64,000 nt of DNA from Branchiostoma floridae (Eukaryota > Chordata > Leptocardii > Amphioxiformes > Branchiostomatidae), in contig NW_023365731.1 in NCBI RefSeq assembly GCF_000003815.2, forward strand, positions 1 to 64,000, given 5' to 3'. How positions within the stretch are numbered: position 1 is the first letter of the stretch; each line of letters opens with the position of its first letter. Positions 18,401 through 54,200 of this stretch are shown piece by piece. A program made the translations under genes and the position numbers. The notes beneath the pieces were generated by a model that was not told the DNA's origin, ran no database searches, and saw only the letters and a program-made list of their open reading frames with translations.

Positions 18401-21400
18401 ATAATTGTTAGTGTACAATGTACTTGTGTTATGCATTTGCACACAGATAAGTAGTAACGACATGGATAATAAAGTCTGTGGAACGTATTGATTGAATACT
18501 TGTCAGTTTCTTCACTGGAAAAGTGTTGTACATGTAACTTGTTACAATAATTGTTAGTGTACTTGAACTATGCATTTGCACACATATAAGTACTAAAGGC
18601 ATGGATAATAAGTTTGTGGAACATATTGATTGAATACTTGTCAGTTTCTTTACTGCCGCCATCTTGTTTTCTATATAAAGACCACCTATGTATGAAGACC
18701 ACTTTTGCTGGGTCCCTTGAGTGGTCGTCATATACAGGTTTGACTGTAGTACTATTCATTTTCAAAGTGCTTTTCCCAAAGGCACAACAATAAAAAGGAC
18801 TCGAACCGAGAACCTTTAAATTCAACAACCTTAAGTTAACCATCCACCATAAATATGCTGACAGGGGTCGAAATACATGCAGGGCTCGAAATACTGAGTG
18901 CCTGTGCACCCAGGTGCACCCAAATTGGAGCTATGCACCCAATTATTTTCTGTGGGTGCACAGATATAGATATGTATGTAAAGATATCAAAGTATATCAT
19001 ATTCTTGACATCTAAGTGTTAGAAAGATAATAAAAATGTTTGTCATGGTACTTGTTTAAGGATTTGATAGCCTGAACTGAACTGAACTAAGTTTTACTAT
19101 TAGGTTATTACTTAGATTTAAGTGGTGCACCCAAAAATGTTTTGGTGCACCCAATTTTTCAAGCTGGGTGCACCAGTGCACCTAATCCCAAAAATGAATT
19201 TCGAGCCCTGACATGTATTGTACATATTGTAACCTGTTACTGTTGCAATTTGAGGACTAACACTCAAGGCTATGTTAAGAAATTTTACTGCCACTGTTTA
19301 CCAACATTTTTCTTCAAGACAATAAAATTAAAAAAAAAATGCTAACAGTGTTGCATTACGCTAACATCAATGAGGATGTACTTACCAGTGCCGGCTTCGT
19401 CTGGAGGTCTCATGTGCTGCTGTAGCATCTAAAACACAAAAATAAAACAGTAAGCAATTGGTAATCTGATTACTATGTTCTTCCACATTTGACATATGAA
19501 ACTTCCACAGCTTCTGTATAACTATAAGTCTATACTCAATCTATATTTCATCTTCTGGACTCTATCTTGATAAATCTCCATAGTGTTGAATGTCAGATAC
19601 AACTGACCTTGTACAAAGAGTTTTCGAGACTTATTTCCAAACTGCAAGAACGTGCTTGCATTGTCTACATTAGAAATGCCCGCAGTGTAAGTCTGTACAT
19701 TTTCTATACATCATCTTCTGGACTTTCTATCTTAATATATCTTCACTGAGGTGAGTGATTTTCATGGTATTTGATTTCCAAATGTCTAAAAAATATGTTT
19801 TTCTTTACCAGGGCAACAAAAGAATGTCCTAATCAACTCATTAAGTGTAGATAATGGTACTTGTAAAAATGGGCTGTTCGCATTGAACACCACTTCAAGT
19901 TCAAAAGGAAGTTTCAAAATTGTGTTAGAATTTGATACGAAACCAAAAGTTGGAAATCACATTTTTACTGTTTTAAGTCACAAAACAAAATCAGGGTAAC
20001 TGCTTTTTAAAGCAGTTTTAGTAGATGGTATAAAAATAAGCAAGCAGAGAAAAGGTCTACAACTGGCTAGTATGCAACCTGAATTAACAATTGTGTCCAA
20101 CAGTAGCATCTGAAACTACTATTTGACTGGGAAATCTATTCAGTCACCTTAGAAAAGTTTTTCCCCTACAGTCAAACCTGTCTACAGCGGTCACTCAAGG
20201 GACCAGGGATATGTGGTTACTATAGACAGGTGACCAGTATAGAGAAATTGCTGATCAATTGGCCACGAGCAATAAGTTACACATGGTTTCAGTACCCACT
20301 TATCTTTGCAATAGGCAGTGCACTGGTCGCAAGATGCAGTGTTTCTGTATCTACAGGACTGGAAATCGTGTGGCCGTGGCCGCGTTGGACAGGTGGCCGC
20401 TATAGACTATTTCTTGCTTAGGTCAATGGAAAAGTCCAAGGGACCAACAAAAAGTGACCGCAATGGTCAGTTGGTCGCTATACAAAGGTGGCCGCTAATA
20501 CAGGTTTGACTGTATATTTTTCGTCCCTGTCTCGCTGCCACTGGATACACAACTACATTTAAGGCCAACAGTAGCAACTGAGTATAAAAAGTGTAAACCA
20601 AACCAAACCAAACCAAAGTTGCAGGAATAGAACTCGTCACACATTCACCTGTACCTGTTGCTGTGCATGTAGGTTAGGGAAGCGAGCCTGTACTCCCTGT
20701 ACATAGTCATCCCCTCGCTGTTGGAGCAGGAACTCACACCGCGGGAACCACTTGGCGTGCTCCGTCCACGGCTCGTCACCAGGCTCCCAGTTCCGCAGGC
20801 CGCCATCGCAGTAGAAACATTTCACGTTGTCCGCAACCACTGAAATATGAATAGGAAAGTTTATTTAAAAAAACAAACTGACCAAATTTTGACTAAAGAG
20901 AAATAAACATCCATGCATAGATGGGAAATACTGTACATGCAGAGGACGTTGATGTTGATTTGATTACAGTAAATGCAGAAATTTTAACGGTTTTATGTTT
21001 GCGGTTTTCGCGTTGCCAATTCACCGCAAACTTAAAACCAACGTGAACATTTTTCCATGGCAGTAAGATGCCAACGAAAAGTCCTTTTCTGCTATTGTAA
21101 AATTAAATCCTTGCAGGTTAAATGCATTTACAGTATAGGAATTACATTAGTTTATCTCCTTGAACTCCAAAACTGATGCAAGCATGCAGATACAAGAAGC
21201 CAAAAAATCATTATGAAATTTAAGTGGTCAGGAAGGTTGAATACTAGTATATGACTGAACACATAGAGTATGGTAGTAATACCATACAATAGATTCTTAA
21301 TTTTTATCCTTTTACATTTTCTTCTTTGACCTTGGAATTGATGTTGACATTCATTCTCAAGTGATCAGGAAGGTTAAACAAATGACTAAACACACTGAAC

Positions 21401-30270: not shown

Positions 30271-30852
30271 TACGAGGGGCGTGCAATAAGTAATGGCCCT
30301 AACCCATTTCCCATAGCAGGAGATTAATGAAACTTGGCACAGATATTAATCTTTCTCTTCATAGGAACCACCCAGAGTTATGCATTTCTCCCATCGTTTG
30401 ATGCAGCTCTGGACACCGATTTTGTAGGACACCCCAGGTTGGTCCTCCAACAGATGCCTCATCAATGGCACAAGTGGGACGACCAGGTCTGGGAGCTGTT
30501 TCCACAGACTTCCGGCCACGTTTGAATTCAGGATGCCAGCGTTTTACAAGGTCATATGATGGGGCATCATCACCATAAGTTTCATTTATTTCATCAAAAG
30601 TCTTCTTTGGTGTGCGTCCTTTCAAATACAAAAACCGGATCACTGCGCGACACTCAACTGGTTCCATTTCACACCTGGTCCATTTCGCACCTGACTAAGT
30701 TCAAACACCAGTAAATCAGAAACCACAATTAGTTCAGAGCTGTCTTTTGCAACATAACCCATAGAGATATGAATCATTACACATACAAAATTTCATTTAG
30801 ATCAGACGACTGGAAGTGGGTCAGGGCCATTACTTATTGCACGCCCCTCGTA
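30271..30852. mobile_element. Internally deleted mariner-family element
   Basis: Near-perfect terminal inverted repeats of about 30 bp begin TACGAGGGGCGTGCAATAAG at the left and its complement ends at 30852; TA dinucleotides lie at both ends, as in mariner target sites. Inside, a minus-strand ORF from ATG 30667 to 30359 encodes the helix-turn-helix N-terminus of a mariner transposase (AVIRFLYLKGRTPKKTFDEI, then SYDLVKRWHPEFKRGR and PRPGRP). The DDD catalytic part is absent, so the copy is non-autonomous. Confidence 0.85.
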
Positions 30853-33889: not shown

Positions 33890-34260
33890 ACAAATTTTCT
33901 CATTAATTATGCAAATCAAGTCCTAATTTGTATGTGTACATCTCTGTCTGCCCGGCCCTATCTACCTACAAGCTGCTAGGGGGCGCAGACTTAGACAACT
34001 TCTGCCTTATAATTCTATATATTTACCACCAAAAATCGACACCACAACATGTCAAGGTAAAAAGATGCAAAAAAGAACAAAAATTCCGCTGCAGTACCAA
34101 GGTTACCCACTAGGTGGCCCAAAGTTGAACTTGACCTTTGTCTTCCCAACACTATACCCACATACCAAATATCTTAGTAATCCATCCGGAGGTTATTGAC
34201 TTGTGACTGCAAAAATCCGGAAACACAAACACAGAGAGACATTCAGACAAGCAAAAAGAC
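33890..34260. repeat. Copy of the TTAATTATGCAAAT dispersed repeat
   Basis: TCATTAATTATGCAAAT, CTAGGGGGC, a CTGCAGTACCAAGG box, and an end with AAACACAAACACAGAGAGAC match the blocks at 10 kb and 58.5 kb. Confidence 0.6.
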
Positions 34261-37043
34261 ACACCTAAAACAATACGTCAATCAATTTCCATGGAGATAA
34301 CGAACCAACACGTCAGCAAATTGAATGCGTCATAGAAAACAACACAAATGTATGAGTCTACCAAAATCCCCAATTTACAAGATAAGGTATAGCCTACGGC
34401 GTCAAAATGGCACAAACAAGTCGTCATCACATCGACGTGTTTGTACATGTCTCTGAAACGTTAAGAAAGGAATGTTAAGAAAGGAATTTTATAAGGAAGG
34501 AATAAGGAATTCTCACATAAAAAAATGTAGTCTTCATTGGGTGACGTCACAGTATCGCGTGCGTGACCTTACAGTGAAAATTAAAAAAAAGGTTTTATAC
34601 CATTGAAATCTCTTTCTTGGTGGGGTTTCATTTAGAATCTTATAATATATATATCAAACTGAAACTGCCAGAGTTTCAGCACTATAAATGCTATCAGTGC
34701 CAGAGTTGGCTGCTGACCTCCAAAAAGAGCCCCCCCCCCCCCCCCCCCGAACAAGGCCGGCCGAAGTTCCTAACTTCCGGAGTTCGTGCGCTGCGCGCGC
34801 GCAAAGTTGCTACTTCGGGGGAATACGCTATTATGGATATATTCAGGTGCGGCACACAGGACATGTATATATGTGCCGGATATATCCGGGTTTGGCAGTT
34901 TAAGGGTAAACAGTTTTTTTCTTCTTCTTTGGAGGAAAAACCCTATAATTGTTGAACCGGATGTACAAAATGACATTTCACCATGACAAAGTGGAATCAT
35001 CGCCAGACGGCTGTTCTGATAGAACAGGTTAGCATTTAAGTTGCTAATGGTTTGAAGTTTTAATTCATGAGATAATGACACTTTTTCACTCCACTTTCCC
35101 ATATTTTTACATGCATTTGGTATATACACTGGAACAGTGTAACCCCCCCCCCCCCCCCCCTTCCCCCTAGTGGGCTGTTGGAGACTACATTGGACAATTG
35201 ATATTGACGTAAACGCGCGTGACCCTCAGGTGATATCCAAAGTTAAACTTATACTTCGACTTTGATAAAGGCTTGCAACGTTATACTAAGGCCAAATAGG
35301 CTACTTAAAGCAGGAGAAATGTCCTACCTAATACGTTGATCAACTGTCTGGTGGCTGAATTCACCTCAGTATCCAAGAGCGTAGAATAAAAATGACCACC
35401 AAAACCGGCGAACAAGTGACAACTAAAATGCATGTGCGTCATGATTTCGTCATCTGCGGAAAGTTACCTGACCTATTGCACGTTATAGTGGACCGGAAGT
35501 AGCACAATGTCCACCTGATCATTATCCAATGAGAGGTTATTGAACCACGAATGGCACCTTACTTGAACCGGTTTGTCGTTCCAGTATGATCTAGAAACAA
35601 TCTCGAACAAAAGCATGTTTACCCCTCCCCAACTCACCAGTCAGGTAAGTGACAAAGCAATTTTATAATTGGTTGTAGAGCTGTGTACCTAACGAATTTC
35701 AGGTGCAGGTAAAGGTACACGTTTTTAAGTACTTGGCAAGTTCGGACCTACACCTGTACCTAAAAAAATTTAACCATTGCAAGCATATGTAAGTTAAACA
35801 TGTAACTACAAGTCTTTTCTAGTGATGAATTGTCATTTTTGCATGGGAATTATATGACTCTCCAAACAAAGTTTTTTTAAGTTTCAACTGCAAGATTATC
35901 ACCATTGTCGTTGTTGATTCGGGATTTACTTACTTCTCCACTGGTCTTAAAAAGTGGCGTCAATAAGCAATTTAGTTTGTTTATGAACAGGTACACAGAT
36001 GTTTAGGTCCGGACCTGTACCTGACGGGCATTGTGGGCGTGTTTATTTCTTAGTGGATGGACAGTATAAATCTAGAAGGCCTGGATAGATTAATTTGGTA
36101 TGAAGGTAAGTCTTGACAAGACTTCGTAATGATTAGATTTTTGCCCCATTCTTTATGATTCCATGATGGTAACTGACTTGAATTTCACATGTGTGGCCCT
36201 TGCTAGTAACATAAAGTTTAACGCCATTGACTGCAAATTATAGGTGACGAAAATGCTAGAATGGTCTTCTGTCTTAAGGTAAGATTGTTTACTTGTATAT
36301 GGGCTGAGGGGATGACCAGCTAATGTAATTATGGAAATGACAAAATGAATGAGAAACGCACACGACACATCAGTTGTAATGCCGGGTTAAGATCAGCCGG
36401 CGAAGGTATGGGGTGGTGGAACTTTAGTTCCCCAATGAGTAACGACTTTGGAACCAACTTCATCAGTCAGCTCAGCGAAACAAGCACGAAGTCTTAAAGA
36501 ACATGTAAGACTCACCTGGTCATATACAGCAGAAGCATGATCGATCAAATGTACCTGATGATGTGGCTACCGAGACACAACAACAATATAGCCGGAACTA
36601 GCTATGTACACCGTACATACATAATGAAAACAAATGGATGCACCTATGAATTGCGTCTTACAGATTTCTTTATAGTTCGGTCACAGCAAATTCCATTACA
36701 TACTGTCATATTCATAGTCTTATCGAGTGGTAGACAGTTGAATTGGACTGTCTAGTAGATTATATAGTATGATCAAGGACGTTATATGGTATGAACTGTT
36801 GAATTGGACTGCTATAATAGATTATATATCATGATATTTCAGGTTGTGCATAATGTTTGCCTCAACTTCCTAGTATTATTGTAATGTAATGTGTTTATAT
36901 CTTATTGGTGGATCACGATACCAAACATATAACTGCCTGTGTACCACGTATGTTGTCTTGTTGCAATTTCAATTAATAAAAATCAACCGAAAAGTAAACT
37001 GTTTTGTCGTCCATTTTTCCTGGTGATAACCAACAACCAAATT

Positions 37044-37082
<39 letters not shown>

Positions 37083-37772
37083 GGACAGCTCAACATAGCA
37101 GTGTCTACACAAATTGTGGAGAATATTTGTAACTCGGTTGCATAGCCTTACACATATTATTCTTCATTTGTAATTTGAAACATCACGTATTTTTATCAAG
37201 AACATGCATTTTTCACTCCAGTAACACTGCTAAAATAACTGAAGCTGAAAATTACAAATTTGGTGCGGAACAAACTTCAACTTTAGGGCTGTAACTCTAG
37301 TTAGGTACTAGGTTGGGCGTCATTCTATAGCTAGTTAGTTTGCAGGTTAAACTATGTACGATGACATGACCAGGCTAAAAGTTGTGTCTTGAGTTAACTG
37401 CAGTTCAACTACGACTGGCGCGCGCTTTTTCCTCAACAAAGACCACGTCCACCTGCATCACTTCCGCAGGGCCCGGGGCTTCCCCGCGCCAACATAGTAC
37501 ACCAATCACAGAAGGGCACCGCGAGTAATAGCCAATCAGTGTCCAGTGTCCAAAGATTAGGTCATCCGTCAGGAGGGTGTACCTTGTAGACGTCGACCCG
37601 CGCAAGTATTCTCTCCGGTTGTTTACTGCCGTGCTTGGGTTTCATTTAAGCGTTAAGGTTTCAAACTGAATTGGAACTAGCAGTTTGCTAAAATCGACCA
37701 AACTGACCAAAGACATAGTTTGGAGGACTTTATTCTGGTAGTGTGGTGTAACAGGTAAGTCCCAACACGGGC
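34261..37772. other. Intergenic, poly-C tracts and simple repeats
   Basis: Poly-C runs at 34730-34748 and 35142-35160. A segment at about 35690-36020 repeats AGGTCCGGACCTG and GTACCT motifs like the hAT-like MITE at 33278-33716 and may be a relative. A CAGA microsatellite lies at 37044-37083. No supported gene. Confidence 0.5.
37044..37083 (+). repeat. (GACA)n microsatellite
   Basis: About ten GACA tetranucleotides in a row. Confidence 0.95.
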
Positions 37773-37776
37773 GATT

Positions 37777-38071
37777 TGTGTGTGTGTTTGTGTGTTCGTG
37801 TGTTTGTGTGTTGTGTGTGTGTGTGATAGTGTGTGTGTGTGCGATAGTGTGTGTGTTTGTGTGTTCGTGTGTTCGTGTGTGTGTGTGATAGTGTGTGTGT
37901 GTGCGATAGTGTGTGTGTGTGTGTGAGTGTGTGTGGGTGTGATAGTGTGTGTGGGTGTGAGTGTGTGTGTGATAGTGTGTGTGTGTATGTGTGATAGTGT
38001 GTGTTTGTGTGTGTGTGTGATAGTGTGTGTGTATGTGTGATTGTGTGTGTTTGTGATTGTGTGTGTTTGTG
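37777..38071 (+). repeat. Long GT-rich array with GATAGTGTGTGT units
   Basis: About 295 bp of GT dinucleotides broken regularly by GATA, GTTC, GTTT and GGGT interruptions. It ends about 250 bp before the assembly gap, so array collapse or gap placement here is suspect. Confidence 0.95.
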
Positions 38072-38321
38072 TGCTGGAGTTTCCTATCCCGGCACTGGTG
38101 TTGTTCCAATTAGGTTGAGCCCCAGAGGGACACCCCAGTGGTGCTTACCCGGCCAGCCCAGCCAGACTCTGGTCACATGGCTAGCATGCCAGACTTAGGC
38201 TCCACCCACCTGTCAGTGCAATCTAATATGGAGGAAATTGAAAGAAATCCTGTCGCCTAGTAACAAAGCAAGCTTTCCCCACAATTCCACGCGAATTCAA
38301 GATGGTGGATAGCGAAAAGTC

Positions 38322-38795
38322 NNNNNNNNNNNNNNNNNNNNNNNNNNNNNNNNNNNNNNNNNNNNNNNNNNNNNNNNNNNNNNNNNNNNNNNNNNNNNNN
38401 NNNNNNNNNNNNNNNNNNNNNNNNNNNNNNNNNNNNNNNNNNNNNNNNNNNNNNNNNNNNNNNNNNNNNNNNNNNNNNNNNNNNNNNNNNNNNNNNNNNN
38501 NNNNNNNNNNNNNNNNNNNNNNNNNNNNNNNNNNNNNNNNNNNNNNNNNNNNNNNNNNNNNNNNNNNNNNNNNNNNNNNNNNNNNNNNNNNNNNNNNNNN
38601 NNNNNNNNNNNNNNNNNNNNNNNNNNNNNNNNNNNNNNNNNNNNNNNNNNNNNNNNNNNNNNNNNNNNNNNNNNNNNNNNNNNNNNNNNNNNNNNNNNNN
38701 NNNNNNNNNNNNNNNNNNNNNNNNNNNNNNNNNNNNNNNNNNNNNNNNNNNNNNNNNNNNNNNNNNNNNNNNNNNNNNNNNNNNNNNNNNNNNNN
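38322..38795. other. Assembly gap (474 N)
   Basis: Run of N. It lies 170 bp upstream of the ATG of the RAG1-like gene and hides its promoter and any further 5' exon or element end. Confidence 1.
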
Positions 38796-38965
38796 ATAGT
38801 TTTGAACGATAATACTTCCTTAAAACACGTTCGAACAGCATATAGGACTTGATTAATGGGGACCCTGTGACCAAGAGCAGATGTGGGTGTGACGAATTGT
38901 GGAATTTGCGCGCACAACCTGTAACGATCATTCTGAGGCGGGCAGTGTAGAGAGCAGGCCGCACT

Positions 38966-41900
38966 ATGGCAGGGCTCCCTCCCGATATGTTCTACCTCGT
39001 GCAAAGGAATGAGATTTTGACTTTACAGAACAGGCAGTTGACAGATAGAATAGCACACCTGGAGTATCAGTTTCAACAGACCGTTCAAGAGCATAGAAGA
39101 CAGCTGGCACAAAAGGAGGTAGAGAAGAGTGCAGTACAGAGAGAGGTGGAGAGACTGGGGGAAGAGAAGGCTACAGTGCAGAGAGAGGTGGAGAGGCTGG
39201 TGGGAGAGAAGGCTACAGTACAGAGAGAGGTGGAGACGCTAAGGGCCCAGCTTCCGGAGGTCAGGGACGATGGCCAGCCCAAAAGAAAGCGAAAAAAGAT
39301 GAATGACACCGAGAAACCATATTCCGCATTGAGGCCAAGCTCCCTGCGGGGCAAGAGAGGAGACCTGAGAGAGAGATTCCTGGAGCCAGCTTTTCGCGAG
39401 TTGCCCCGCCATATTGTGAAAGCAAACGTGAGTCTACAGATAACCAGCAGTTAGTATTGATTTTTAATGGTCAGTGTTACTAATTCAACATTTGCAGTGC
39501 TATTTTGGCCACTATTAAGTTCAGTATACATGTTGTACTTAATATATGTCATCTCAACCTAGCATAGGAATGGTAAAGCATCTAAAAAAATATCTGATTA
39601 TTGAAGATATTTTCTTTTCATAGGAATATTGTGCATGTATCTCTACTCTTGCCATTTCAGGTCACGTTCAGGACTGAAGACGGCTTTTGCCTGGATGTAG
39701 AGTGGCCCCAAGGTCTCTATGACCGTAGGAACAACCCCCCTCCAGCTCAGCACGTCCCCGTCACAGGCCGTGGATACCGCCACCAGACAGAAGAGACCAA
39801 AGACCTGGTCCGGTGGTGTGTCCACTTCAAGGACCAGGCCTCTGTCTCGGATGTCTGGTGGCACGAGCTTCACATGAAGTTTCCCAAGGTCATACCACCC
39901 ATTGGTTGGGTCCGTGAGGAGAGAGTTGAGCAGAACTCCTTCCTTCCCTACCAGATGGAAGAGAACGTACGGAATGCTCCCATACATCTGTCCATCTATG
40001 TTCAGTATCTATGCATGTTGTGAGGCCATCAAGGTGTATATTTCTGAGGTGTTGTTAGAAATACAATATCCCTAATGTATGTATAATGATACTTTTCTTA
40101 GATATGGCCACAAGATGGCCCCAAATAGTAATACTAATAGGGCAGTGATCATGAGATTCTTTTGAATGTATCTTCTTTTCCACACTAAGATATAATATTG
40201 TGACACAGTTCATCTGAAATGTTCACTACAGGCCAGGGATGGAAATGGGGCGTCGCGGAGTGTCAAGGAGATAATCACCCACCATCTACAGCTGCCTGAA
40301 AACCAGCACCTGCTAGAGGCTGACGAGCCAGTGGTCAGCTTCCGATATGGTGTGGATGGCCGGCCACAAGCGAAGAATACGGTCATTGGAGCTGTGATGG
40401 CGTGCATCACACCCGTAAGGGACCTGGAGGAGGCGAGGAGACGACCTCGCTTGGTCCGAGACGAATATTGTGTTTTTGTGTATAGCGGTATGTAAGATAA
40501 TACTACATGTATTTAGAAATTATAGACATAAGTATCTGCATGCATGTATTTATACATACATACATCCTATTTGTGGTTTAATCACACCAGACATCTCAAG
40601 ATGCTTTATCAAGATTGCTTTATCTTATGTGACAGTATGTATCAGCTTCCATCCATGAATATCTTTTTTATATGTCTATGTAAATGCTTGATAAGTAATG
40701 CATGTAGAGTGCACTGCATGAAATATGAGATTTACCAAACACCTAGTACAGGGGTGCATGTCAGGGATGTACCCTGGTATAAGGCTTTATATAGGGGTGC
40801 ATGTATTACATTGTCAGAGATGTACCCTGGTATAAGGCTTTATATAGGGGTGCATGTATTACATTGTCAGAGATGGACCCTGGTATAAGGCTTTATATAG
40901 GGGTGCATGTATTACATTGTCAGAGATGGACCCTGGTATAAGGCTTTATATAGGGGTGCATGTATTACATTGTCAGAGATGGACCCTGGTATAAGGCTTT
41001 ATATAGGGGTGCATGTATTACATTGTCAGAGATGGACCCTGGTATAAGGCTTTATATAGGGGTGCATGTATTACATTGTCAGAGATGGACCCTGGTATAA
41101 GGCTTTATATAGGGGTGCATGTATTACATTGTCAGAGATGGACCCTGGTATAAGGCTTTATATAGGGGTGCATGTATTACATTGTCAGAGATGGACCCTG
41201 GTATAAGGCTTTATATAGGGGTGCATGTATTACATTGTCAGAGATGGACCCTGGTATAAGGCTTTATATAGGGGTGCATGTATTACATTGTCAGGGATGG
41301 ACCCTGGTATAAGGCTTTATATAGGGGTGCATGTATTACATTGTCAGGGATGGACCCTGGTATAAGGCTTTATTTAGGGGTGCATGTATTACATTGTCAG
41401 GGATGGACCCCTTTTTAAGGCCTTAAACAGGGGTACATGCATTACATATGTGTATAACATTGATCTGAAAATTTGGCAAGCATCGCCTACAAGTACATGT
41501 ATCCTTATTACTCATTCAGGCAAGGAGAGCTATGAGGAGCAGGTGCAGTCCGGCTCTCGTGTATTCAGAGAGATGGAGGACCTCCAACAGAACGGACTGC
41601 ACCTGAAAGTAGGAGAAGAAGAAGACGGCCAGGACAGAACAAAACATGTCAAGATTAATTGGTAAGGAGCTTCCTATCTAATGTTATCCACTCTCTACTA
41701 TTGATTCATAGGAGCCACTCAAAAGTCATCATTTTTGCATTTTGCGACTTGCAGTCGCAAAATGCCTTCTGGCCAGTGTAGTCGCCGTTGTGATGTTGAG
41801 ATGAACGGACCTGTTCAATCCATGCCAAACATTTGTATACCTGTTAAAACAGGCATTTCTTCAACATGTTCGCACTAGCGCAGTGGTAAAGTTTACGCAT

Positions 41901-44900
41901 TCTAAACCAATGCACCCGGTTCGAATCCGGGGAGGTAGTTTTTTTCAACTTTTTTTTTTCTTTTTTACATCCATTTGGCCACACCAATTTATTTCTTTGG
42001 TTAACGGATTCGCCGCTTCGTTTTTTTGCCGAATAGAAATAAAAATTAAAAAAAAACTTAAAAATGCCCCGCAACAGAGCTCACTCAAAAACAGGCAATG
42101 TGTAGTGAAATTTGCTGCAGTTCACGCAAATTTTAACAGGTGGCGTCTAGATCTGCTGCAGTTCAGGCACATATGTGAATCTCTCCATGCGCCAATATCA
42201 GGTTTAGTTACTCTGTTCTATTTATATGACATTCTAATAACTAGAAAAAAACGTTCACACACGCAAACATTGGCAAAATGCCAGCTTTTTTAAAAGCACT
42301 TGTTTAAACAACATTTTATTACTATTACAGGTACATTCTTTCCGACTGGAAGGCGCTAGCAGAGATGATGGGTCTCGTTGGGCCAACAGGTAAATGTAGA
42401 ATTACATTTGCTTGTATATTACCAGAAGCTGTTTATTTTTATTTTGATGCCTGTAGTCTAGGGATCTGAGTCACATGACTCAAGTCATACATGTTACAAT
42501 TAGTTACAATATCAAATAGCTTAAACATGTTTACTTACAAAAAATACATCACATAAATGTTGTACATCTAACAGAAGTTGTACCTTTTACAGGGAAATAC
42601 TTCTGTGTTCTGTGCTACTGCACCAAAGAGCACTTGTCACGCTTCAGTCAAGGTATGGCACTGTTCATTACTTCAGTTTGCATGCAAGTTATACCCCATG
42701 ACTTAAATTTGAGTTGTACCATATGTTCAAGTGAATGTAATATCCACCAGTAACCATCTTCTAAACATTGAGGCACAATGCAATGTTTTGCTTACTATTT
42801 GACTATTTGATCTATGGGCCTTGCACTGAAGCTGGTCCACTTTTGACTGGTTCAAAGTTACTGATAATCAAAAATGTGTATACTAGCAACAATATCAATA
42901 TTGTAATTTCAGACTTCTCACTGAGGACACATGACAAGGCAGCCCAGTGCATCCGGGACAGGGATAAGCGAGGTCACCAGAAGCTGCCTGTCATGAGTAT
43001 ACCATGGGGAAATGTTATCATTGACACCCTACACATGTATGTACTTCAATTTTGAAACAAAATGTGTCAACCAACTTTGCAATTCTTATGCATATTAATT
43101 GTAAAAGCTGTTTTACCAAGACATGCTAAGATAAGTTTTATTTTTCAGGTATCTCAGGATAGGCGGGAAGTTGCTCACTCAGGTACTTTTGACTTTACAT
43201 TGTTTGCCTCTGTACCACTACACTCAGAAAGTATTAAAAACACACATCAAGGTATCTTTGAATGTTTACTTAAACTTGGATTTTGTGCAGTGTACACATA
43301 TTAACAACATAAAGCAAGTAAACTCAAATGATAAATGACCTATTCTACTTTTAAAATGTTAAGTAGCATCCAGCAATCTGTGTCATGTCTACTATATCAG
43401 AGAAATCTATGACAAGAGAACTTCTTATCTTTCAGCTCATTGGCTGGGTCATTGACCAGAATGTCCCTGAGAAGTTGGAGCAAGCCATGAGAGATGTGGG
43501 GGTTGGGACGTTCTACTTGAGAGAGGAGGGAAACAGGCAGGGCACCAACACCTTCAAGTGGAAATCTTTGTCAGGTATGACATTTCTTCACATGTATAAT
43601 GATCAAGCACGCAAAACAAACATAAAAGCTAAGCTGTTACAAGCTTAAATGTTGCAAAAAAACCATAATATTTGGATTACGTTTAAGTTGAATTGCAATT
43701 TCAACTATAAAGGACATAGATCTAATAACTGCAACTCACTTTTACCCACATAGCAAAAGAGCTCAAGAAAGCAATAAAGATGCTGCCAGACAGACTACCG
43801 GACATTATTGAGAATGTCGGCATAACCAGGGAAGCAAAGATTGACAGCTTGCAGGGGCGGACACTTACAGCCATCCTGCAAAGCAAAGGAGCAAAGGTTC
43901 CACATAAGGTCTCAGAAAGGAAAGCCCTCCTAAAGGAACTTCTTGGAGGAGCGGAAAGGGTGAGCTGTTTCAATGTAGATGTTGTTCGACCCTTTTGATA
44001 TTTGAAAATGTGCTGAACTAATGTGTATGGCTTCACATTTCAACCCCTTTTCTCCAAATTTGCTGTTTGCCCTATGTAGATAACAGTACCTGGGAGGCCC
44101 GGTACTCGTGTGCAAATCCAAGTGGCTGACATACAAGAGATTTGGCGGGTAAGTTGGAAAATTTATACTTGGATAATTTCTTCTAAAGAAAAAGATCATT
44201 AATAAAACGCAGAACAAAGGATAGAAACAAAAATTAGAGCATGAATTTATCTATACCATAATATACTGCCCTCTTCACAGGAGTTCTCGAGAATCATGGA
44301 TATGCCCAAGGACCCAAGGCTCCATAACAACTACAAGGCAGCTGCCAGACAATGGGTCCTGAAGTTTCGAGACACCACATACCTCGAAGATTGTACGCCG
44401 TACATGCACTGTAAGTTAATTATATATACTATTATTACACATTGTTCAGAAACTATTCAATGTAAAGACAGTGTTAGTCCTTTGCTATGCATGTATAATC
44501 TTTCAACAAATAATTGAGTAACAGGTAATAAGAACATCTACTTTGACTAGAGAAATAGAACAGTAAAAAAATTCAGAGAATACTGTCTCCCACACTTGCC
44601 ATGTTTGTGCTGTGAAAGTATTTCATAAATTTAGAAGTTTTAAACCTATATATTTTTTCAGACTTTGCCTGCCATGCTGGTGACCAGCTGCAAGAGCATC
44701 CGTTCTTGCACTACGTGAATTGCGAGACAATTGAGAAAAAAAACCACGTGCAGACGAGGCGGTACCACTTGGCCACGCAGAAGGGGGGAGGTCGCAACCA
44801 CAGCAAGTGGGCCGAGCAGGTAATTTCATATGTATCTACATATGTTCATATGTTGAATTTGATACCTGCTGAAGACCTGATGTTGGAAGTGTAACACTAG

Positions 44901-45408
44901 TTCACCTGTATCCTATATCTGTTGTTTTTATAAACAGGGTACTGTATTTAATAATATCAAGTTGATATCAAACTACAAAATTTTTTAAAAATAATTTCAC
45001 CATGAAAATATTGCAATTTGAAACCACCGTCTATCGACTTGATACACATGTATCACTAAATACCTTGCTTTTAAAAGCAACGGATATAGGTTACCCACGG
45101 ATAAATATGAAGTAGCATTACAAATGGGGACAGAGTCATCATTTCTGTATTTCAATCTAATCTGTTTATACTATTTTCAGTTAATGCAGATGGAAAATCG
45201 AGAAACTTTTGCGGCCATCCATGGGATTGGGCAGAGGGAGAAGAGGAAGTGGACGAGGAGAGCCCAGCCTGACGATCCTGGGTATGGTGGGGGATCCGCC
45301 TCGGACAGCGACTCTGAAGAATCGACGGTGGGCAGCAACACCGATGAACTGGATGGTGATGATGATGATGATGACAGGATTGTATATGATGGTGAAGAGG
45401 ATGACTAG
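38966..45408 (+). CDS. RAG1-like DDE/zinc protein, 14 exons, 790 aa
   Basis: Exons: 38966-39427, 39661-39966, 40232-40487, 41520-41661, 42331-42389, 42593-42652, 42913-43036, 43149-43182, 43436-43574, 43754-43959, 44080-44148, 44281-44410, 44662-44819, 45181-45408. All introns are GT..AG and phases agree, giving 2,373 nt. Seen: a basic coiled-coil N-terminus (about 15-95, with tandem QREVERL-type heptads), a lysine/arginine patch (KRKRKK, about 107-112), and a core with D298 (VDG), D394 (LSDWK), C413/C416 (CVLC), H662/H667 (HYFACH), E687 (TIEKKN), then an acidic Asp/Glu-rich tail. Spacings D394-C413 (19) and H667-E687 (20) equal those of RAG1 D708-C727 and H942-E962; the zinc pairs have the same CxxC and HxxxxH form. 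Inference: an RNase H-fold DDE recombinase or transposase-derived protein, probably nuclear and DNA-binding. Whether it is active is unknown. The many introns favour a host gene. The ATG follows a 170-bp stretch after an assembly gap, so upstream non-coding exons cannot be excluded. Confidence 0.87.
40751..41455 (+). repeat. 53-bp minisatellite, about 12 units, intron 3
   Basis: Unit of 53 bp beginning GGGGTGCATGTATTACATTG. The first unit lacks 10 bp, the inner ones are almost identical (AGAGATGGACCC), and the last are diverged (AGGGATGGACCC, then CCTTTTTAAGG). No unique spacers. Confidence 0.95.
41737..41765. other. 13-bp perfect hairpin, intron 4
   Basis: GCATTTTGCGACT, loop TGC, AGTCGCAAAATGC. 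Confidence 0.85.
41863..41936 (+). repeat. tRNA-like relic (SINE head or tRNA pseudogene)
   Basis: Contains a box-A-like TAGCGCAGTGG, an anticodon-like stem GCATT/AATGC with a 7-base loop, and a perfect box B GGTTCGAATCC within a CCCGG/CCGGG T-stem, followed by T runs that would stop Pol III. The acceptor stem does not pair, so it is not called a working tRNA. Lies in intron 4 of the RAG1-like gene. Confidence 0.6.
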
Positions 45409-45422
45409 TTCTAGTTGTTACA

Positions 45423-47276
45423 TCATGCCTCATCTGCGGCCTCCCAGTGCACCCTCTGCCTTGTGAAGGAGAAGTTCATCTCCGCTTTCCCCACAAAGTA
45501 GAACAGCTTTGGGGTGCAACTGTCAGGTCGCTCCGACCCAGAGCTCTCCTCCCAGTTGCACCTGTGTGTTAAAAATAGAGATAAATAACAACTGTAAATA
45601 ATTATGTAGATGTTATTGTTTATGTTAAATGTGATGTACATTTACCTGTGTATTGATATTTGTAGACTTATTTGTTGAAGAGAGGAAAACCATGTGCTGC
45701 CACATCTCAACCCCAAAGTACTGCAGAACAGAAGCCTGGATTGTCCAGGCTAGTAACAGTGCTAATGATATGATGTGAATTATGACATCCACCCAAGTCT
45801 CAAAATGGTTGGTGAAATTGTATATATGATGTAATTAACGACTGCAGATATTGTTTCATTACTGTGTATATTTTATGTATGTAAGATGTGTGATAAACAC
45901 ATTGTGTCACCACAACCCTTTGTAAGCATTAGGTAGATTAGTAAATTCAGGTATTCTCATACCTTGGGCATTCCTTGTGAGAGAATGTCTCTCTCTTCTT
46001 GTACCCCCACGAGATATGCACCCCATCTATCTGGACGACACGGCACACCGTGTTTGTAGGGAAGGTCCTAACATCCCAGTTCTTCCCCAGGATTGTGTTC
46101 ATCTCCTCCATCTTGTCATATGGCAAGCTGATTGCTCTCTGTCTGGAGAAACAGTTCTCCAGGGGATGTTCCTCCAGCAATTCTTTGCACAGTGGCATCG
46201 ATAACTGCTGGAGGAACAGGGCCCTGAAGTTGTTTTCGGAGAAGGGTACGGTGACTGTCACCCTTCGCTGGTGTCCCTCATCAACGGACGCAGTGTACCG
46301 GTAGTTTAGGCTAATAGTGAAAACAAAAGAAGGAGAGACAACAGTTATAAGTTTACTTATACATCAGAATACAATTCACTTATACATCAGAATACAATTC
46401 AGTCGTATGAACGTCCCGGTGTTTGCTAAGGATGTTGTCTATCTCTGCCATATGAAGGGAAGAAAGTGTTCATTCACAGACTGAGTCATTTCAGAAATGA
46501 TGGTATTGTTGTATTATTTAAACTTGTTTACTTACTTGTCAAATATGCCCTGCTTCAGGAGCGCCAGCTCATCATTGTCATGAAAGAGTAGCTGTTCCTC
46601 CTTGAACACTGTAAGAAAATTGTATATATACTCTTACCAAAAGATGATGATGTGAAGAAGTAAAATGGGTAACAGCTAATATAGCTGGTCTGCCTCAAAA
46701 GATATGCATTGCTTTCTGTCATTGATTTAATGTGCATACAACTTTAAGTATTTTCTCTCTTAGTATGGTACACTCTACAGTCAATGCTGTTAAAACCCTT
46801 AATCCGGGTACACTCAATGACGTAAACTTTTCATTTCCCTAAGGTAAGGCCACATATTGTAGCTGCAGTGAACCCCGACTGTCAAACGTAATATGACACA
46901 CACGTTATCATAAAGTCATGTGTTATACTGAGAAGATCAAGTAATACGTTTTCTCAGTTCATCAGCAGAGTAATGACATAATGTCAAAGTAAAAGACATT
47001 ACCTTTAACCCCCGGGTGGCAGCAGTTTGCCTGTAGCTGCTTCTCCAGCTCAGGATTAAACCGGAGGTCCACCACGCTGTTGGGCCAGTCCCCTGCCCAC
47101 TTGACTATGACCTGGTTGGCATCCACTCGAGAGACGACTTCGATGATAGGCCAAGGGTCGGAGTTTTCCCGAGGCTCTCTTCTCTCTACTCGAGCCCTGG
47201 GAAAACTCCATGGCCCATACTCGAAGTCGTCTTTCGCAGCAGAACGCCTCGTTCGCGTGGACTTCCGAAGAGCCAT
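45423..47276 (-). CDS. Chromo-like domain protein, 4 exons, 277 aa
   Basis: Exons in transcript order: 47276-47003, 46608-46536, 46310-45963, 45561-45423. Introns are GT..AG on the minus strand, phases agree, total 834 nt with TGA stop. The ATG at 47276 was chosen over an in-frame GTG 24 nt upstream. Residues 1-42 are basic (RKSTRTRR). Residues 43-77 look like a chromo fold (WPIIEVVSR, then VIVKWAG, then the acidic DL..NPEL helix), though the usual aromatic cage is not obvious. The rest includes cysteines (HKECPRCNW, then DSC) that could bind zinc. No named family recognised beyond the chromo-like segment. It is convergent with the RAG1-like gene, stop to stop with 14 bp between, so the 3' UTRs must overlap. 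Inference: a nuclear chromatin- or DNA-associated protein; a functional link to its neighbour is only suggested by position. Confidence 0.78.
46357..46401 (+). repeat. Short tandem duplication, intron 2 of the chromo-like gene
   Basis: Two copies of a ~22-bp unit containing ACTTATACATCAGAATACAA. Confidence 0.8.
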
Positions 47277-47327
47277 CGTGCGTGAGTCAAGACTAGGCAC
47301 TGGGTCTTTCTAAGGCCACTAACCACT

Positions 47328-47356
47328 AGTGACCTGACCTTTCAACTCAGGTCACT
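47328..47356. promoter_or_regulatory. Inverted AGGTCA half-sites before the chromo-like gene
   Basis: AGTGACCTGA, 9 bases, TCAGGTCACT: a perfect 10-bp inverted repeat holding everted AGGTCA half-sites, 52 bp upstream of the ATG at 47276. Such half-sites are bound by nuclear receptors; binding here is inference. Confidence 0.4.
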
Positions 47357-49880
47357 TCAAGTTTTTTTATCATTAAATAGTTTTAAAGATTATTTTGTTA
47401 TTGTGTCCGACAGAATGAAAGTTTGCGATGTTATACTGGGTTAAAAGTCTGCTTGTAACACAACAAAATAGGGGGGAAAACTACACAATTGCATTTGTTA
47501 TTTCTTGTGCTACTCGCATATTTCCCGCCAAACCGATATCCTTTCCAGATGTGTCAGCCCAAGGAGGGCCTTGGTGAACATCATCTGTCACTTAAGCGGT
47601 ACTTAGCATGGGCCGCCTGGTGGGTATCCCGCCCCGCCGGGTCTGCTATCTATTCCCACATTAGACCAGAGTCCAGCGCTCAAATCTTGATAGTGTGTGT
47701 GTGCATGTGTGTGTGTGTGTGTGTGTGTGTGGTAGCAATCGACAGGTACTCGAGGAAGCCACAAGCGCTGAGCGCCGTCAATGTCTACTCACGGAATGCT
47801 TCAGAACCGGATACAGATCACACAGACCACGGACAGGTAAAGATTTGTTTTCATGCCTAAAGGCAACAACGAAATACAACTGTTACAGTGGTACAATTTG
47901 ATGACCATGTGGAAAACGTCGGTCGGAGAGTTTATCGAGACCTAAAACTAAATTCCCCATTGGATTTTAGATATAGCCTATACATAATGTATGAAAAATA
48001 CCGTCCCCTTGTTTTTATTACTACAAATATTTCAAAGGATCGATGTTTCACGTGGCCGTGGGCACTATGAAACACCAATGATATTTGAAAAAAGAAACAT
48101 CAAAGTTAAAAGATCTCCTACCTTATTCCTTTACTTCGAGGTGTGGTTATGGCTCCGTTGGCTTAAACAGAGGCCCCTTAGCCTTATTACATTTGTATGT
48201 GGTCTTGAAACCATTGTTCCCTCAACCAGAACGCCAGGTGCAGACATGACCTCACTACATTGTCGAACCACTCAAACCAACAAAGGAAATTGGGCCAGAC
48301 TTGCAGGAAAATCGTGATCGTGATAAACATGGCGACGCTAGAGTTTTGGAATTTTACTAACCTGTTGTTCTGCCCGCCAGCGGCTTGTCAGTTATTATTA
48401 TTGGCCTGTTTTCGGTGGGTAGTGCTAGTAACCGCCTGGAGCGGACCAAAGCTAACGAAACTGGACTCAAGGCTACAATTTTACACGATCCTTTGCCATA
48501 GACCAATTCATTGAATGTCAAGTACACAGTCATGTACTAATACAATGGCGTACCTGCGTTCTTTGTTCAAATCACAATCACTCACCTTTCTTTTGATCCT
48601 ATCAGAACACGTGGTGGGTGTACGTTTTAAAATGACTGCTTATTACAGCGTGCACCAGTAGACGCTTTGCTGTTCTGAATAGCGGTCTTTGTCTATACCT
48701 ACCTATTGAATATTAATGAGCACTGGAAAGCACCTGATACATTCCTGATGTTACAGGTAACAGCAAAGACTGTTGGCTTTGGCGGTCATGCATTTTGTAG
48801 AGAGCCTATCTATTTCATATTCTCGTATTACACACGGGTCCGTATTCACAAAGGGATTGTCAATCATGTATCAAGATTCTGCCTCTCCGGCATACAGGTA
48901 TTTGATAACCCGAACGACTGAGTCTGTCAACTTGACAGCAAAGGTAAGTGGTGAAGAAACTGTGCAAAACAAGTTGAACCAAAATCATAGGCTGGAATCC
49001 AGCCTTGTAAGCTTTGGTGTGCTCCAGAGCGACCTTCGGGAGTGGACCAAAGCTAACAAGGCCGGATTTTTAGGCTACCCAAATTATTGGCATGAAAGTT
49101 CGTCAGGGAACACCTACTATCAAAGACGGCGGGCTGTATCAACTTCCTGGCACTTTTGTCCAATTAGAGACGTCACGTGTCACGTGGTAACTTGAGTTCT
49201 GAGGAATATACTGCAGTAGGACAGTCGAGAGTTCAAATTTTTGCTGGAATGAAGTTTTAGCTAGTTAAAAGAAAATTACTGGAAAACTGTTGAATTGTCT
49301 CATCTAACACATTCAACACAGTGTGTTTCAGTGAATTCTTGTTTTGAAATAGCTCAGTGGGGTATAATCTATGAACAAAATATACACAAAAAAATCATAC
49401 AATTGATTAAAAATTGTTGTGTGTGAGGATATATATCTTAAGGGCTTTGAATTAGAAGAAAAAGAAGAAAAAAAAATCAATAATACACGCACACTGGGCA
49501 TAGACCATAGGGGTAAACGACAGGGCAGGATATATTTTTTAAATAATGTACATGTATGTAACATTCAGTGGAAGACAATACTTTTCAATGATCTATTTGT
49601 TGCGCTAATGGTCACTATGAAAATATACCGTTGCAGGATGTGTGTGGAAATAGTCCACAGCGCAGTTTGTCATAGCGACCTAAAGTCGCTAGATGACGCT
49701 GTTCATCCATCAGCAACAAAGGCGCTGCGAAACTACTCCCGAGGGTCGGAAAAGTTGATATTTGAACTTGTTGAGCTTTCGTATACGAGTTATCGTGATG
49801 ATGAGGTCATGATAATCTGTATAACGTCAGGCTCCTCAGCGGAAACCCAACACTGCTTAGTGCCGATATTCGTTAATTAG
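47357..49880. other. Intergenic, no supported gene
   Basis: Several open frames of 60-150 codons but none with family features or consistent splice sites. A 20-bp motif GGACCAAAGCTAAC(G/A)A recurs at about 48443 and 49034. Confidence 0.45.
47693..47733 (+). repeat. GT microsatellite
   Basis: About 18 GT dinucleotides with one CA interruption. Confidence 0.9.
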
Positions 49881-49889
49881 TAATAATTA

Positions 49890-51260
49890 TTACTTGTCGA
49901 GCAACGAAAGGGGAATCCCCGGCCTCTCCCCCAAAATATACAAGTCACTTCCTGGACTTTTCATCCTTTGTGTTATGGTATTTATTGAAATGTCTCAAGA
50001 ATTTACTTGACTTTACAACTCATTTTCCATATTATTCAATTATTGCGATCAGCAGGTTCGAAATGAAGGGTGGGGCCTGCAATTTCTAAATTATTTTGCT
50101 GGTCTGATAATACCCGTTGTCAAATACTACACAACTAGGCTTGTACACAGAAGTACGTAGGCTTGCACACAGAAGTACGTAAATATCAGCATTAAAAAGC
50201 AAAGTATCCATGTTTTAAGCCCGTTTCTATGCGTTGACCAAATCGCAAATCTGGGTATCAACCACAAGATAATGATAAGAAAATATGACATACTATCTTT
50301 AAATCAAGGGTCACAACCGGAAGAGCATTTTTCAAGGGAAACAACCAAGATAGCTTATTAACTTGCGACAAGACAACATATAAAACCGCAGGCATGTGTA
50401 CGTACCTTGTGTATGTCACATTGTAAGAAAACGGTGAGGGTTCCAGCATAATGCCTAGCTTACTCGTAGCCGAATAAGTTAGCTCCCGAACACCAGCCGA
50501 CCCTTAGCTGACTCAGGTTTGCAGTAGTTCGGGAGCAGTCTGACCAGTTTAGGCCACGCCTATCTTTTAGCGCCGAAAATGTTCCGAACTTGTCCTAACC
50601 ATCTCCCGACCAGTAAATGACTTACTCCCGGCTGTTTCCCGAATGCTAACTAACCTATCACCAACCATCCCGACCTCTAGCCGCAGACTGCCGAATCACT
50701 CCTGACTGGTCCCCAACCGATTGCTAACCCTCTCACGACTTGAATGGACATAATCAGTGATTTTCAAAAGAGTGGTCATTTTCGTTTTTAGTCAAAATAA
50801 TCTTTTCTTCTATTAGTATTTTGTAAACATCACCACGAGATCAAATTTGGATCACAAATAGCTCCAATACGGCATTTATGATTCTTTCTGTTTTTGACTG
50901 GATGTCGCTCGTGTGAAGTTCGGGGGTGATTCGCCTACGTCCTGGTAATAGTCATTTTCCTTGGGAGTGAGTCAGCAGAGATTTGTGTACGGTCTTGGGG
51001 TGAGTCGTGGGTAGGTTGGAAACAAGCTGTAAGTAAGCAGTGTTTATGTCGAGGTTTAAGATGACTGCTGACTTACGACCGAACACCAGCCGAACACTAG
51101 CCAACCGTGTCGAACACCAACAAAATCCCCAACCAACCCATTCCAGACCTGCCGTGCAGAGCCGAATGTTTTGAACATTTCAAACCCCATCATTAGCCCA
51201 TGGCTACTTCCTGTCAGCCAATGAGAAGTCCCCAATTCTGTGGCTTTATCCACGAAGAAG
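49890..51260 (+). repeat. Diverged local duplication, copy 1
   Basis: Blocks at 50035-50130, 50215-50290, 50318-50445 and 51190-51235 match blocks at 54660-54740, 54835-54920, 55240-55350 and 55675-55715 in the same order and orientation (for example AACATATAAAACCGCAGG and CCCATGGCTACTTCC). Copy 1 uniquely carries a CCGAAC/CCCGACC-rich stretch at 50460-50760. Confidence 0.65.
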
Positions 51261-54200
51261 AAAATGTGAATTAGACTAAAAGACGCAGAAGTGTTACTTA
51301 CTGTCTTAGCCTACACGTCGATTGGCCTCCTGGTGGGCTGAATTCACCCAAGTGGTCTGACTTTACAAACCCAAGAGTATTACATGTGTCACTTCAAACC
51401 AGTCACTACTAGTTCTTTTTTTTTGCAAAACATCGCAGTATGACCGGAAATGGATTACGCAATGCTTGCTTTAATCTCACCATCCCGATCCTGAAGGTAT
51501 CAAAGGTTACTGAAGGTTGTAAAGGTGAATGACCACACGTAACATTCGTCTGACGTCATCAGGAAGGTACAACCGCACACCTCTGGAGCAAAGAATCTGT
51601 CAGTTCTGTAACCTGAACAAGGCTGAAGATGAAGCCCACTTTATATTAGATTGTAGTTTATATAGGTAAGATAGAAGTATTCTTTTTAGCTATATTATAG
51701 GAAAGTTGAAAGTTGAAAAATTCATTCTCTTATGAGTTTTGATTAAACGACATTATACAAATGCAAACACATCTCAAGCAAAAGGGAGAGTTTAATCCTT
51801 CTGCATGAGGTGGCGGAACTCTGTTTATTTATTCGAAATTTTTCAGTCATCTTGAACATAACCCCGGGAATACTGTTCTGTTGAGAATTCAAGTCCATGA
51901 AACGTGAATAAATTCAGGTTGGTAAATGACTAAATGACAAAGTTCTTTATCTATGCTACAAAATTTCACGCCTGGAAATGCATTCTTAACGATACAGCAG
52001 CGACACCTAGCAGCAGTGTGAGGTAGTACCTGTCATATTATTGCTTTGAGGAATGAAAGTGACAGTCACTGAACCGTCGGCTTTCATTGTCATTCAGTGA
52101 GGGAAATGTTTTCACTCCTTACGCCACTAGAATACCTAAATACAAAATGTACCTGTGTTTCACATAGACTAGTACCCATCGCTATCGACTTGGGAAACAC
52201 ATTTGCACATGAGCTTCATTTACCGCTATTTGACAAAAATACTACTAACGTTACAGGTATCTTGGTAGGCCAGAGTGTGCATAGTAACAATCATTAACAT
52301 ACAAAGGTATCGAAGATCTGGACAGCCTGGCGACATTTAATGACCATGCTATATATATATGTGCATGTGTATATACACAGGTAGACAGAGGACAAGAACA
52401 CGTGGTAGTCTTACGTTGCCACATCAACACGTCATCCAGTAAATAACAAACAAGCAAACAAACAACTGTAAAATCAACTCTCATATTTAACTTCACCGGG
52501 TGCCATAATACCGCCTTATAAAAATTGTTATAACAGTTACAAGTAGAAGCCAGTTAATTGCACAACGGATAATCGCACACTTCTGTTAATTGCACGAAAT
52601 CCCCAAATCCCATGGCAGTGCAGTCCAGCTTAATAACTTCGCTTTGTTGCACCATTCGGATAATTGCACGACATGCACTGGCAAATTGGGTGTGCAATTA
52701 AGCGGCTTCTACTGTAGAGGCCTTCTTTAGACTGTCTTGAACACCTAAATATTCGAAGTGTACATGACTTTGTATATACCTTAGCAAGTTATAGTGCTGC
52801 ATTGGTACATCTCTTTTAATCACTATAATGCATGCATTTTTTTCTCATGTGGCTGTATTATGACTATGAGAGTTCATGTTAGCTGTTAATGTTATCGCGG
52901 TGCCGACACAAACTGTAGGGAACATACTGCAATTGGCGTAGCCGTATCTCTTCTCATTTCCTAAAGCCCGTCACATGTTACATATCAACATCTGCAAAAG
53001 CATACCTTTTTTTCTTCCAACTTAGCTGTCTTATGGTGGGTGGGGGTGGGGGTAACAAGTGTGCATCATGAAACGATGGTCGGTACGCGGTAGTTAGAAA
53101 TTCGTCAGGACTGTTCCAGTCCTATACGAGCGATCGCGATGATGTCACGGTGACGCCGTGGTAGGCAAAAAGCAGGTGTTTGGGAAAAGATTGATTTACA
53201 TATCAACCAGTAATGTGATCTGCTAATTCAAATGTCAATTTTTGATCCAATCTACTGACATCCTGGTAGGCACCAGTTCGGATATAAACAACAACAGCGA
53301 TCGCTAGTATGGACCGGACAGGGACGCCATTGTTACTCGGACTCATGGCCAGGTGCACTACAGCTGGCGAGCATGACGTCACCCCTTTAGCCTCAAACTA
53401 ACAAACACTTTCGAGAATACACGTGGTATTTGAAGCGCAGAATTAACAAAATGAAGATATGGCTATGTCAGTCCCATAGCCCTATAGCAGAGATGTCTTT
53501 AGCTAAAACAAGGAGGATATTAAGCACATTGCTTAGGGTGTGAATAGACGCTAAGGTGAGGTATAAAGTCTTCGAATACTAGCTTTCTTTGTTACGTTTG
53601 TTACATGTGACTACTCTCTAATACGTCCTCAAAATTCACCTACCGGGACTCTTGTCATGCCAGTTCTATATAAGTCTGACTGTTGTGCCACTGAAGACAT
53701 TTCAAGGTTGACTGTAACGTTACCGTGACACAGTTAATAGTTCCATGGCTCCATATCAGACCGCGTTTTGGGCTTTGTAGGACCCTCAGCTCTAGCGGAA
53801 AGTACCGTATATGGTCACCTTGACTCGTGTTGCACTCACAGCACTACTAATGGATTCGCTGATGTCAACGACAAGGCATGCATAGCTAACATTACGGTAT
53901 ACAGTTCAAGCTCAGTTGTCAACTGAACCGGACCTGTGGTATCAATTTCAGCTTGGGCCTACGTATATTTGATATAGATGATTGTTGGCAAAATTGCTTG
54001 AAGACGAAGAAGCCGAACATGAAAAATTGCAAACATTGATCACGTAAATGACCGCAATAGAACCGTATGCTTGAATGTCGTGTCGTGCTCTTATCCCACC
54101 ACTTTGTCTGCAGTGGAGATCTAAATTGCTGGGTGGCGCTGTGACTATATAAGTAGAACAGCGGGTCTATTATCGGAGAGCAAAAAACATGTCTTTGTAT

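Follow-up and report, generated by a model that had tools for sequence, protein, structure and literature searches.

The window analysed here, the whole stretch of bases 1–64000 of the 145,703-base contig C173 in the Branchiostoma floridae genome assembly (513,431,437 bases, 431 contigs), contains on its plus strand (38966–45408) a gene that, judging from its sequence, probably encodes the transposase of a DNA transposon family of the RAG1/Transib/CACTA type, one with two genes, many introns and a low copy number. An initial annotation of this DNA had proposed a gene of 14 exons with the residue spacing of the RAG1 catalytic core. The exon model is borne out: the spliced exons amount to 2373 nt encoding 790 amino acids plus a stop codon, internal stops are lacking, all 13 introns are bordered by GT and AG, and the reading frames join across every one of them. 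By its reading frame, the gene looks like one encoding an intact DNA-cutting enzyme. A partner gene that was absent from the initial annotation lies on the minus strand (47276–45423; four exons, 277 residues), arranged tail to tail with the first gene such that the two stops are 14 bp apart. The features of the pair are listed below, with C14 and C2 standing for copies on other contigs.

38322..38795 (no strand): run of 474 N just 5' of exon 1, which would hide a left terminal repeat
38966..39427 (+): putative transposase exon 1, start codon, coiled coil and basic stretch; Pfam coiled-coil matches below cut-off
39661..39966 (+): exon 2, homologous exon in the C2 copy
40232..40487 (+): exon 3, DG motif with D298, a residue shared by the C2 copy and by 3/3 covering fragments
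40759..41447 (no strand): 53-bp satellite, 13 copies, 97% matching, within intron 3
41520..41661 (+): exon 4, counterpart in the C2 copy
42331..42389 (+): exon 5, D394, kept in C14
42593..42652 (+): exon 6, C413xxC416, kept in C14
42913..43036 (+): exon 7, DxxH (D466, H469), kept in C14; M470 codon split by the intron
43149..43182 (+): exon 8, from the spliced model
43436..43574 (+): exon 9, from the spliced model
43754..43959 (+): exon 10, corresponds to the HeH/SAP domain in the C14 copy
44080..44148 (+): exon 11, from the spliced model
44281..44410 (+): exon 12, H662 close to the exon end
44662..44819 (+): exon 13, H667, E687 and N690, from the alignment with C14
45181..45408 (+): exon 14, stop codon preceded by an acidic tail
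45423..45561 (-): partner exon 4 with the stop codon, at a distance of 14 bp from the transposase stop
45963..46310 (-): partner exon 3, WGY block and start of the HxxCPxC block
46536..46608 (-): partner exon 2, from the spliced model
47003..47276 (-): partner exon 1, alignable to the C14 partner in its chromo-like region, but itself without a chromo match

With regard to the N-terminus of the predicted transposase, the Pfam matches are all of the coiled-coil type and every one stays below its cut-off, while a RING domain is absent from the 12 Pfam matches listed for the protein. This agrees with the earlier description of the region as a coiled coil and not a RING.

Relationship to the RAG1 core and its clade

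The seven residues D298, D394, C413, C416, H662, H667 and E687, set in the initial annotation against catalytic and zinc-binding residues of RAG1, are present in the spliced protein, each at the position given for it, and the gaps between D394 and C413 (19), within CxxC and HxxxxH and between H667 and E687 (20) are the same as in the two vertebrate RAG1 sequences compared, again as claimed. For D298, the only links to D600 of RAG1 are the DG motif and its position. A DxxH motif (D466/H469), which had escaped notice, is located between CxxC and HxxxxH, and in a profile alignment H469 falls on the H of the IDALH block in mouse RAG1, by count H795, named as an active-site residue in PMC7204232. 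The exact spacing, which had been taken as a sign of kinship with RAG1, is not diagnostic because the corresponding gaps differ in HzTransib (D-16-C and H-22-E) and in BbRAG1L (H-23-E, with the D of DEK 19 before C in the alignment). When the window protein was shuffled 40,000 times, the RAG1-spacing pattern D-x18-C-x2-C...H-x4-H-x19-E, with 60–400 residues between its halves, turned up 12 times, but this pattern had been picked after the fact and called for an independent test of kinship.

In a profile comparison with hhalign, of the kind proposed in the initial annotation, the family was set against the RAG1 sequences of mouse, zebrafish and BbRAG1L. It reached a score of 48.5 over 232 columns (86.5%), above each of 200 column shuffles (mean 15.1, maximum 25.0, 0/200 reaching 48.5) and above the reversed profile (13.8). 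By the same method Transib versus RAG1, an accepted relationship, scored 43.3, and none of 100 shuffles came up to that value. When a profile of the window and C14 proteins was run against 177,635 PDB sequences without selection, RAG1 came first, though weakly, with three constructs of one protein, presumably from zebrafish (E 0.09, 0.26 and 0.26). The match consists of two collinear segments, ungapped over the catalytic and zinc residues, in which D394 is paired with the D of YDEK (which we take to be D708 in mouse RAG1 numbering), CxxC with CxxC, HxxxxH with HxxxxH and E687 with the E of GNESGN. In addition, the C-terminal piece of C14 has PF12940 (RAG1) as its sole Pfam match (E 0.0084, 14.7 bits versus a cut-off of 25), and in a repeat scan of five separate members one was matched, by RAG1 only (E 0.006). 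The profile comparison with its shuffle control, the first rank in the PDB search and the C14 Pfam match thus support distant homology between the window protein and the catalytic core of RAG1, with a separation similar to that of Transib from RAG1.

Several results weigh against this homology. The family matched the one Transib sequence at 1.1%, and the single proteins scored lower against RAG1 than the family did (window 28.7, 9%; C14 32.8, 24%). Extending the alignment to exons 3–4 gave 33.4 (17.7%), yet 0/100 shuffles reached this score. Neither of the two PDB segments is significant alone (independent E 33–69), C14 alone found RAG1 just in third place (E 1.1) and a five-row C-terminal profile found no PDB match. 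For the window protein alone, no transposase match was obtained in Pfam or PDB and none with PF12940 at E up to 10; the curated cut-off of this model is reached neither by the window protein nor by the C14 piece.

According to PMC12730594, C(2)C and H(3-4)H motifs between the second D and the last E of the DDE triad are the mark of a clade with EnSpm, Mirage, Chapaev, Transib and RAG1. Both motifs are present inside the DDE set of the window protein and of C14. Since DDE, C(2)C and H(3-4)H are common to this clade, the residues in the window mark the clade and not RAG1. Of the earlier proposal of a RAG1/Transib-like lineage, distant homology to the RAG1 core hence stands by profile comparison, while a "RAG1 lineage" is too narrow. 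This clade, the CMCT clade (Kojima, 2025), whose motifs the window family carries between its second D and last E, also includes Plavaka, ESTA and Lanisha beside EnSpm/CACTA, Mirage and Chapaev and has 5'-CA..TG-3' ends and target duplications of 2–5 bp (PMC12730594).

Likeness to RAG1 and RAG1L (ProtoRAG, RAGL transposons) comprises the DDE residues spaced as in mouse, a zinc set split into C2 and H2, the DxxH motif and the collinear profile match and, for RAGL transposons, introns as well as two genes in convergent orientation. On the other hand, the family differs from RAG1/RAG1L by a chromo-like partner without Kelch match, an N-terminal coiled coil without RING match, a HeH/SAP insert (in C14), a Pfam score below cut-off and CAC-type ends, of which none were found. 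The C-terminal tail Cx2Cx3GHx4C, described for invertebrate RAG1L (PMC7204232), is missing in the window, where the acidic tail from exon 14 has no cysteine. With Transib the family shares DDE with CxxC and HxxxxH and an LH motif that follows CxxC (STLH versus DTLH), but the Transib gaps are D-16-C and H-22-E versus 19 and 20, and the direct match to one Transib sequence is not significant. Transib, moreover, consists of one gene, in contrast to the two genes of the window family.

Relatives in the viral contigs and bacterial and archaeal genomes searched were not confirmed, NCBIfam gave no match, and nine PHROGs families were each matched by one of two members (best E 1.3e-05, unnamed).

Copies of the two genes in the genome

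All genome match lists are lower bounds. Two exons of the C2 copy used as query found at least 17 places, with copies on C2, C425, C14, C3, C16 and C6. The C14 transposase core is 34% identical to that of the window and retains D394, C413, C416, D466, H469, H662, H667 and E687, with the gaps D-19-C, HxxxxH and H-20-E unchanged; loss of the key residues in relatives, which the initial annotation had regarded as speaking against its proposal, is therefore not seen in C14, the one divergent core read. D298 is retained in the C2 copy, the remainder of which is interrupted by a gap. By eye, most core introns of C14 are located at the same positions as in the window, which argues for spread as DNA; the intron that separates exons 5 and 6 in the window gene has no equivalent in C14, and two introns near H662 and E687 differ. 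Exon 10 of C14 encodes a HeH/LEM domain (PF12949, 39 bits versus a cut-off of 28.9), with SAP below cut-off, and aligns with exon 10 of the window, in which Pfam detects neither HeH nor SAP.

The convergent gene pair recurs on C14 (DNA read) as well as on C2 and C3 (match coordinates), resulting in four copies on four contigs including C173. The C2 and C3 partners match over three exons without stops, and per-exon matches amount to 55–76% among C2, C3 and C14 and to 34% with the window. For the transposase copy on C16, there was no partner among the matches listed. Like the transposase core, the partner is 34% identical between window and C14, and both versions have a WGY...HxxCPxC block in common; the C14 sequence ends before the close of its open frame, leaving its C-terminus uncertain. 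A chromo-like fold of the partner is likely, in C14 by agreement of matches that are each too weak to be significant and in the window by alignment: all 11 PDB matches of the C14 partner are chromo-domain proteins (LHP1, CBX7, CBX2, MPP8; best E 0.1). The assignment is weakened by the fact that the only Pfam match of the C14 partner is Chromo at E 0.1 (0.022 for the N-terminal piece) and that the window partner gives only DUF6657 (E 0.046) and no chromo match; its chromo-like piece alone has no Pfam match. No match to a Kelch domain was found in the window or C14 partner. According to PMC7204232, a convergent RAG1L-RAG2L pair is the known layout of RAGL transposons. One literature search for a convergent chromo-like partner gave nothing apt among the papers listed.

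Closer copies of the transposase gene are numerous, and none of those read is whole. The C-terminal half of the protein as query found at least 49 genomic places, seven of them in the window gene, 38 on C6 (19.78–28.04 Mb of 28.09 Mb) and four on C165. For the N-terminal half there were at least 24 places, three in the window, 17 on C6, two on C245 and one each on C425 and C2. The last 8.3 Mb of C6 (19.78–28.07 Mb) hold 55 of the at least 63 non-window matches obtained with both half-protein queries and also carry two RAG1-model matches with stops. Twenty-seven regions (L009–L035), each of at most 10 kb, were chosen from the C-terminal-half matches and read. Matches were present in 26 and the whole gene in none, the longest match covering 444 of 790 residues, and the matched part contained an in-frame stop in 10 of the 26. 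Where the fragments cover a site, D298 (3/3) and D394 (3/3) are always kept, H662 in 6/10, H667 in 9/11 and E687 in 10/11, while C413 and C416 are covered by none; conservation in the broken near copies is accordingly only partial.

Three matches of the RAG1 model beside exon-13 copies on C165 were considered as proof of kinship and rejected. The DNA there consists of broken RAG1L genes adjoining a family fragment, and a query pieced together from these remains matches amphioxus RAG1L 6b40 (E 6.5e-50), so that the matches are uninformative on the relationship between the family and RAG1. Four repeated segments on this contig (L031–L034) pair family exon 13 with RAG1L remains, as if the two had been duplicated together. 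The top RAG1-model match of the genome is located at C11:1543383-1544420 on the minus strand (E 5.6e-40) and has six internal stops, due to introns or decay.

Proposed function and alternative explanations

As components of a transposon, which we consider the probable nature of the pair, the two proteins may be assigned the following roles. By analogy with RAG1 and Transib, D298, D394 and E687 would coordinate a pair of metal ions within an RNase H fold, and the zinc site (C413, C416/H662, H667) would brace the domain around an inserted helical or HeH/SAP segment contacting DNA. The coiled coil may dimerise the transposase, and the enzyme would nick the element ends, form hairpins and then join the ends to the target. 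The partner, with its putative chromo-like region and conserved HxxCPxC block, could be an accessory subunit tying the complex to modified chromatin, a role parallel to that of the PHD finger of RAG2 via a different fold. The RAG1 antibody-gene recombinase derives from this type of transposon, and the question stands of how, in the origin of V(D)J recombination, a transposase came to have a partner that reads chromatin. A related family with a convergent, chromo-like partner of its own, in a genome also holding RAG1L remains, provides another case for asking whether such pairing is a habit of the clade or an accident of one lineage. We tentatively suggest that the family could be a separate RAG1-type branch with an independent convergent two-subunit layout, in which a chromo-domain reader replaces the Kelch/PHD protein RAG2 and a HeH/SAP segment is inserted into the core.

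It is also quite possible that the family belongs to a lineage of the clade that already has a name, be it EnSpm/CACTA, Mirage, Chapaev or another Repbase family. Chapaev elements have been reported from lancelet and sea anemone (PMC4411706), and the Pfam models are DUF1280 for Chapaev and DUF1258 and Transposase_21 for CACTA (PMC3985635). Against such an assignment, no Pfam transposase model besides RAG1 was matched by the window or C14 pieces at E<=10, in a Pfam copy that may or may not include DUF1280, DUF1258 and Transposase_21, and the search for published convergent chromo-like partners mentioned above found none that is apt. No published description of the window family was recognised in the literature searched, which excluded Repbase Reports and most subscription journals. 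A large unnamed protein family in cnidarians, sponges and Rhizophagus may have similar DG, SDWK, CxxC and IDxLH blocks; if so, the family would be widespread and no lancelet novelty.

The initial annotation had called the gene possibly domesticated. A host gene pair that no longer moves and has a function in the animal, perhaps in rearranging DNA or in controlling chromatin, is in our view unlikely. It would fit the two open genes in the window next to near copies of which 0/26 are whole and 10/26 have in-frame stops, and also the low dN/dS and the lack of convincing inverted repeats. The dN/dS ratio versus the window gene is 0.14–0.32 in 7 of 24 tested loci, those with dS below 1, as calculated from best-matching pieces that may include intron and counting L026 and L027, which have equal counts and look like duplicates. 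While its copies diverged, the protein was thus under constraint; a working transposase and a host gene would both be expected to show this, and dN/dS does not distinguish between them. Positive evidence for domestication was not found; convergent two-gene copies on several chromosomes favour a transposon, and it is the intact window copy that leaves domestication some probability.

Some results, on the other hand, count against a transposon: the C14 transposase frame, by eye, meets a stop in exon 11, and the flanks of the window pair are without convincing inverted repeats or target duplications in a search of 36000–38965 against 47277–50500 and of 34000–52000 (25 of 76 inverted pairs listed), in which the 474-base gap conceals part of the left flank. 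Besides GT-repeats, the flank comparison yielded a single 18-bp inverted match (17 of 18; 36949–36966 and 50363–50380), whose halves enclose the gene pair at a distance of 13.4 kb from each other and which scored 15 versus a maximum of 14 in 30 shuffles. This match was rejected as an element end, having neither CA..TG ends nor a matching duplication and recurring in no fetched locus.

That the two genes are chance neighbours and not one unit is very improbable. The two are separate and lie on opposite strands, and C11 and C10 have partner matches but no match to the transposase; yet this explanation is contradicted by the tail-to-tail arrangement on four contigs, unless all four copies are assembly artefacts, and by the per-exon matches given above. 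A chance arrangement of the RAG1-like residues, with which the low overall identity and the missing Pfam RAG1 match of the window protein would agree, can practically be dismissed in view of the 12/40,000 shuffles, the conservation in C14 and a profile score above 200/200 shuffles.

Elsewhere in the window, open frames on the minus strand at 15419–22860 resemble an IAP gene, with what we take to be BIR, UBA-like and RING parts. A minus-strand fragment at 30362–30694 resembles the N-terminus of a mariner-type transposase, and at 13877–14046 an 18-bp unit is repeated 9.4 times (99% matching) and is open in more than one frame.

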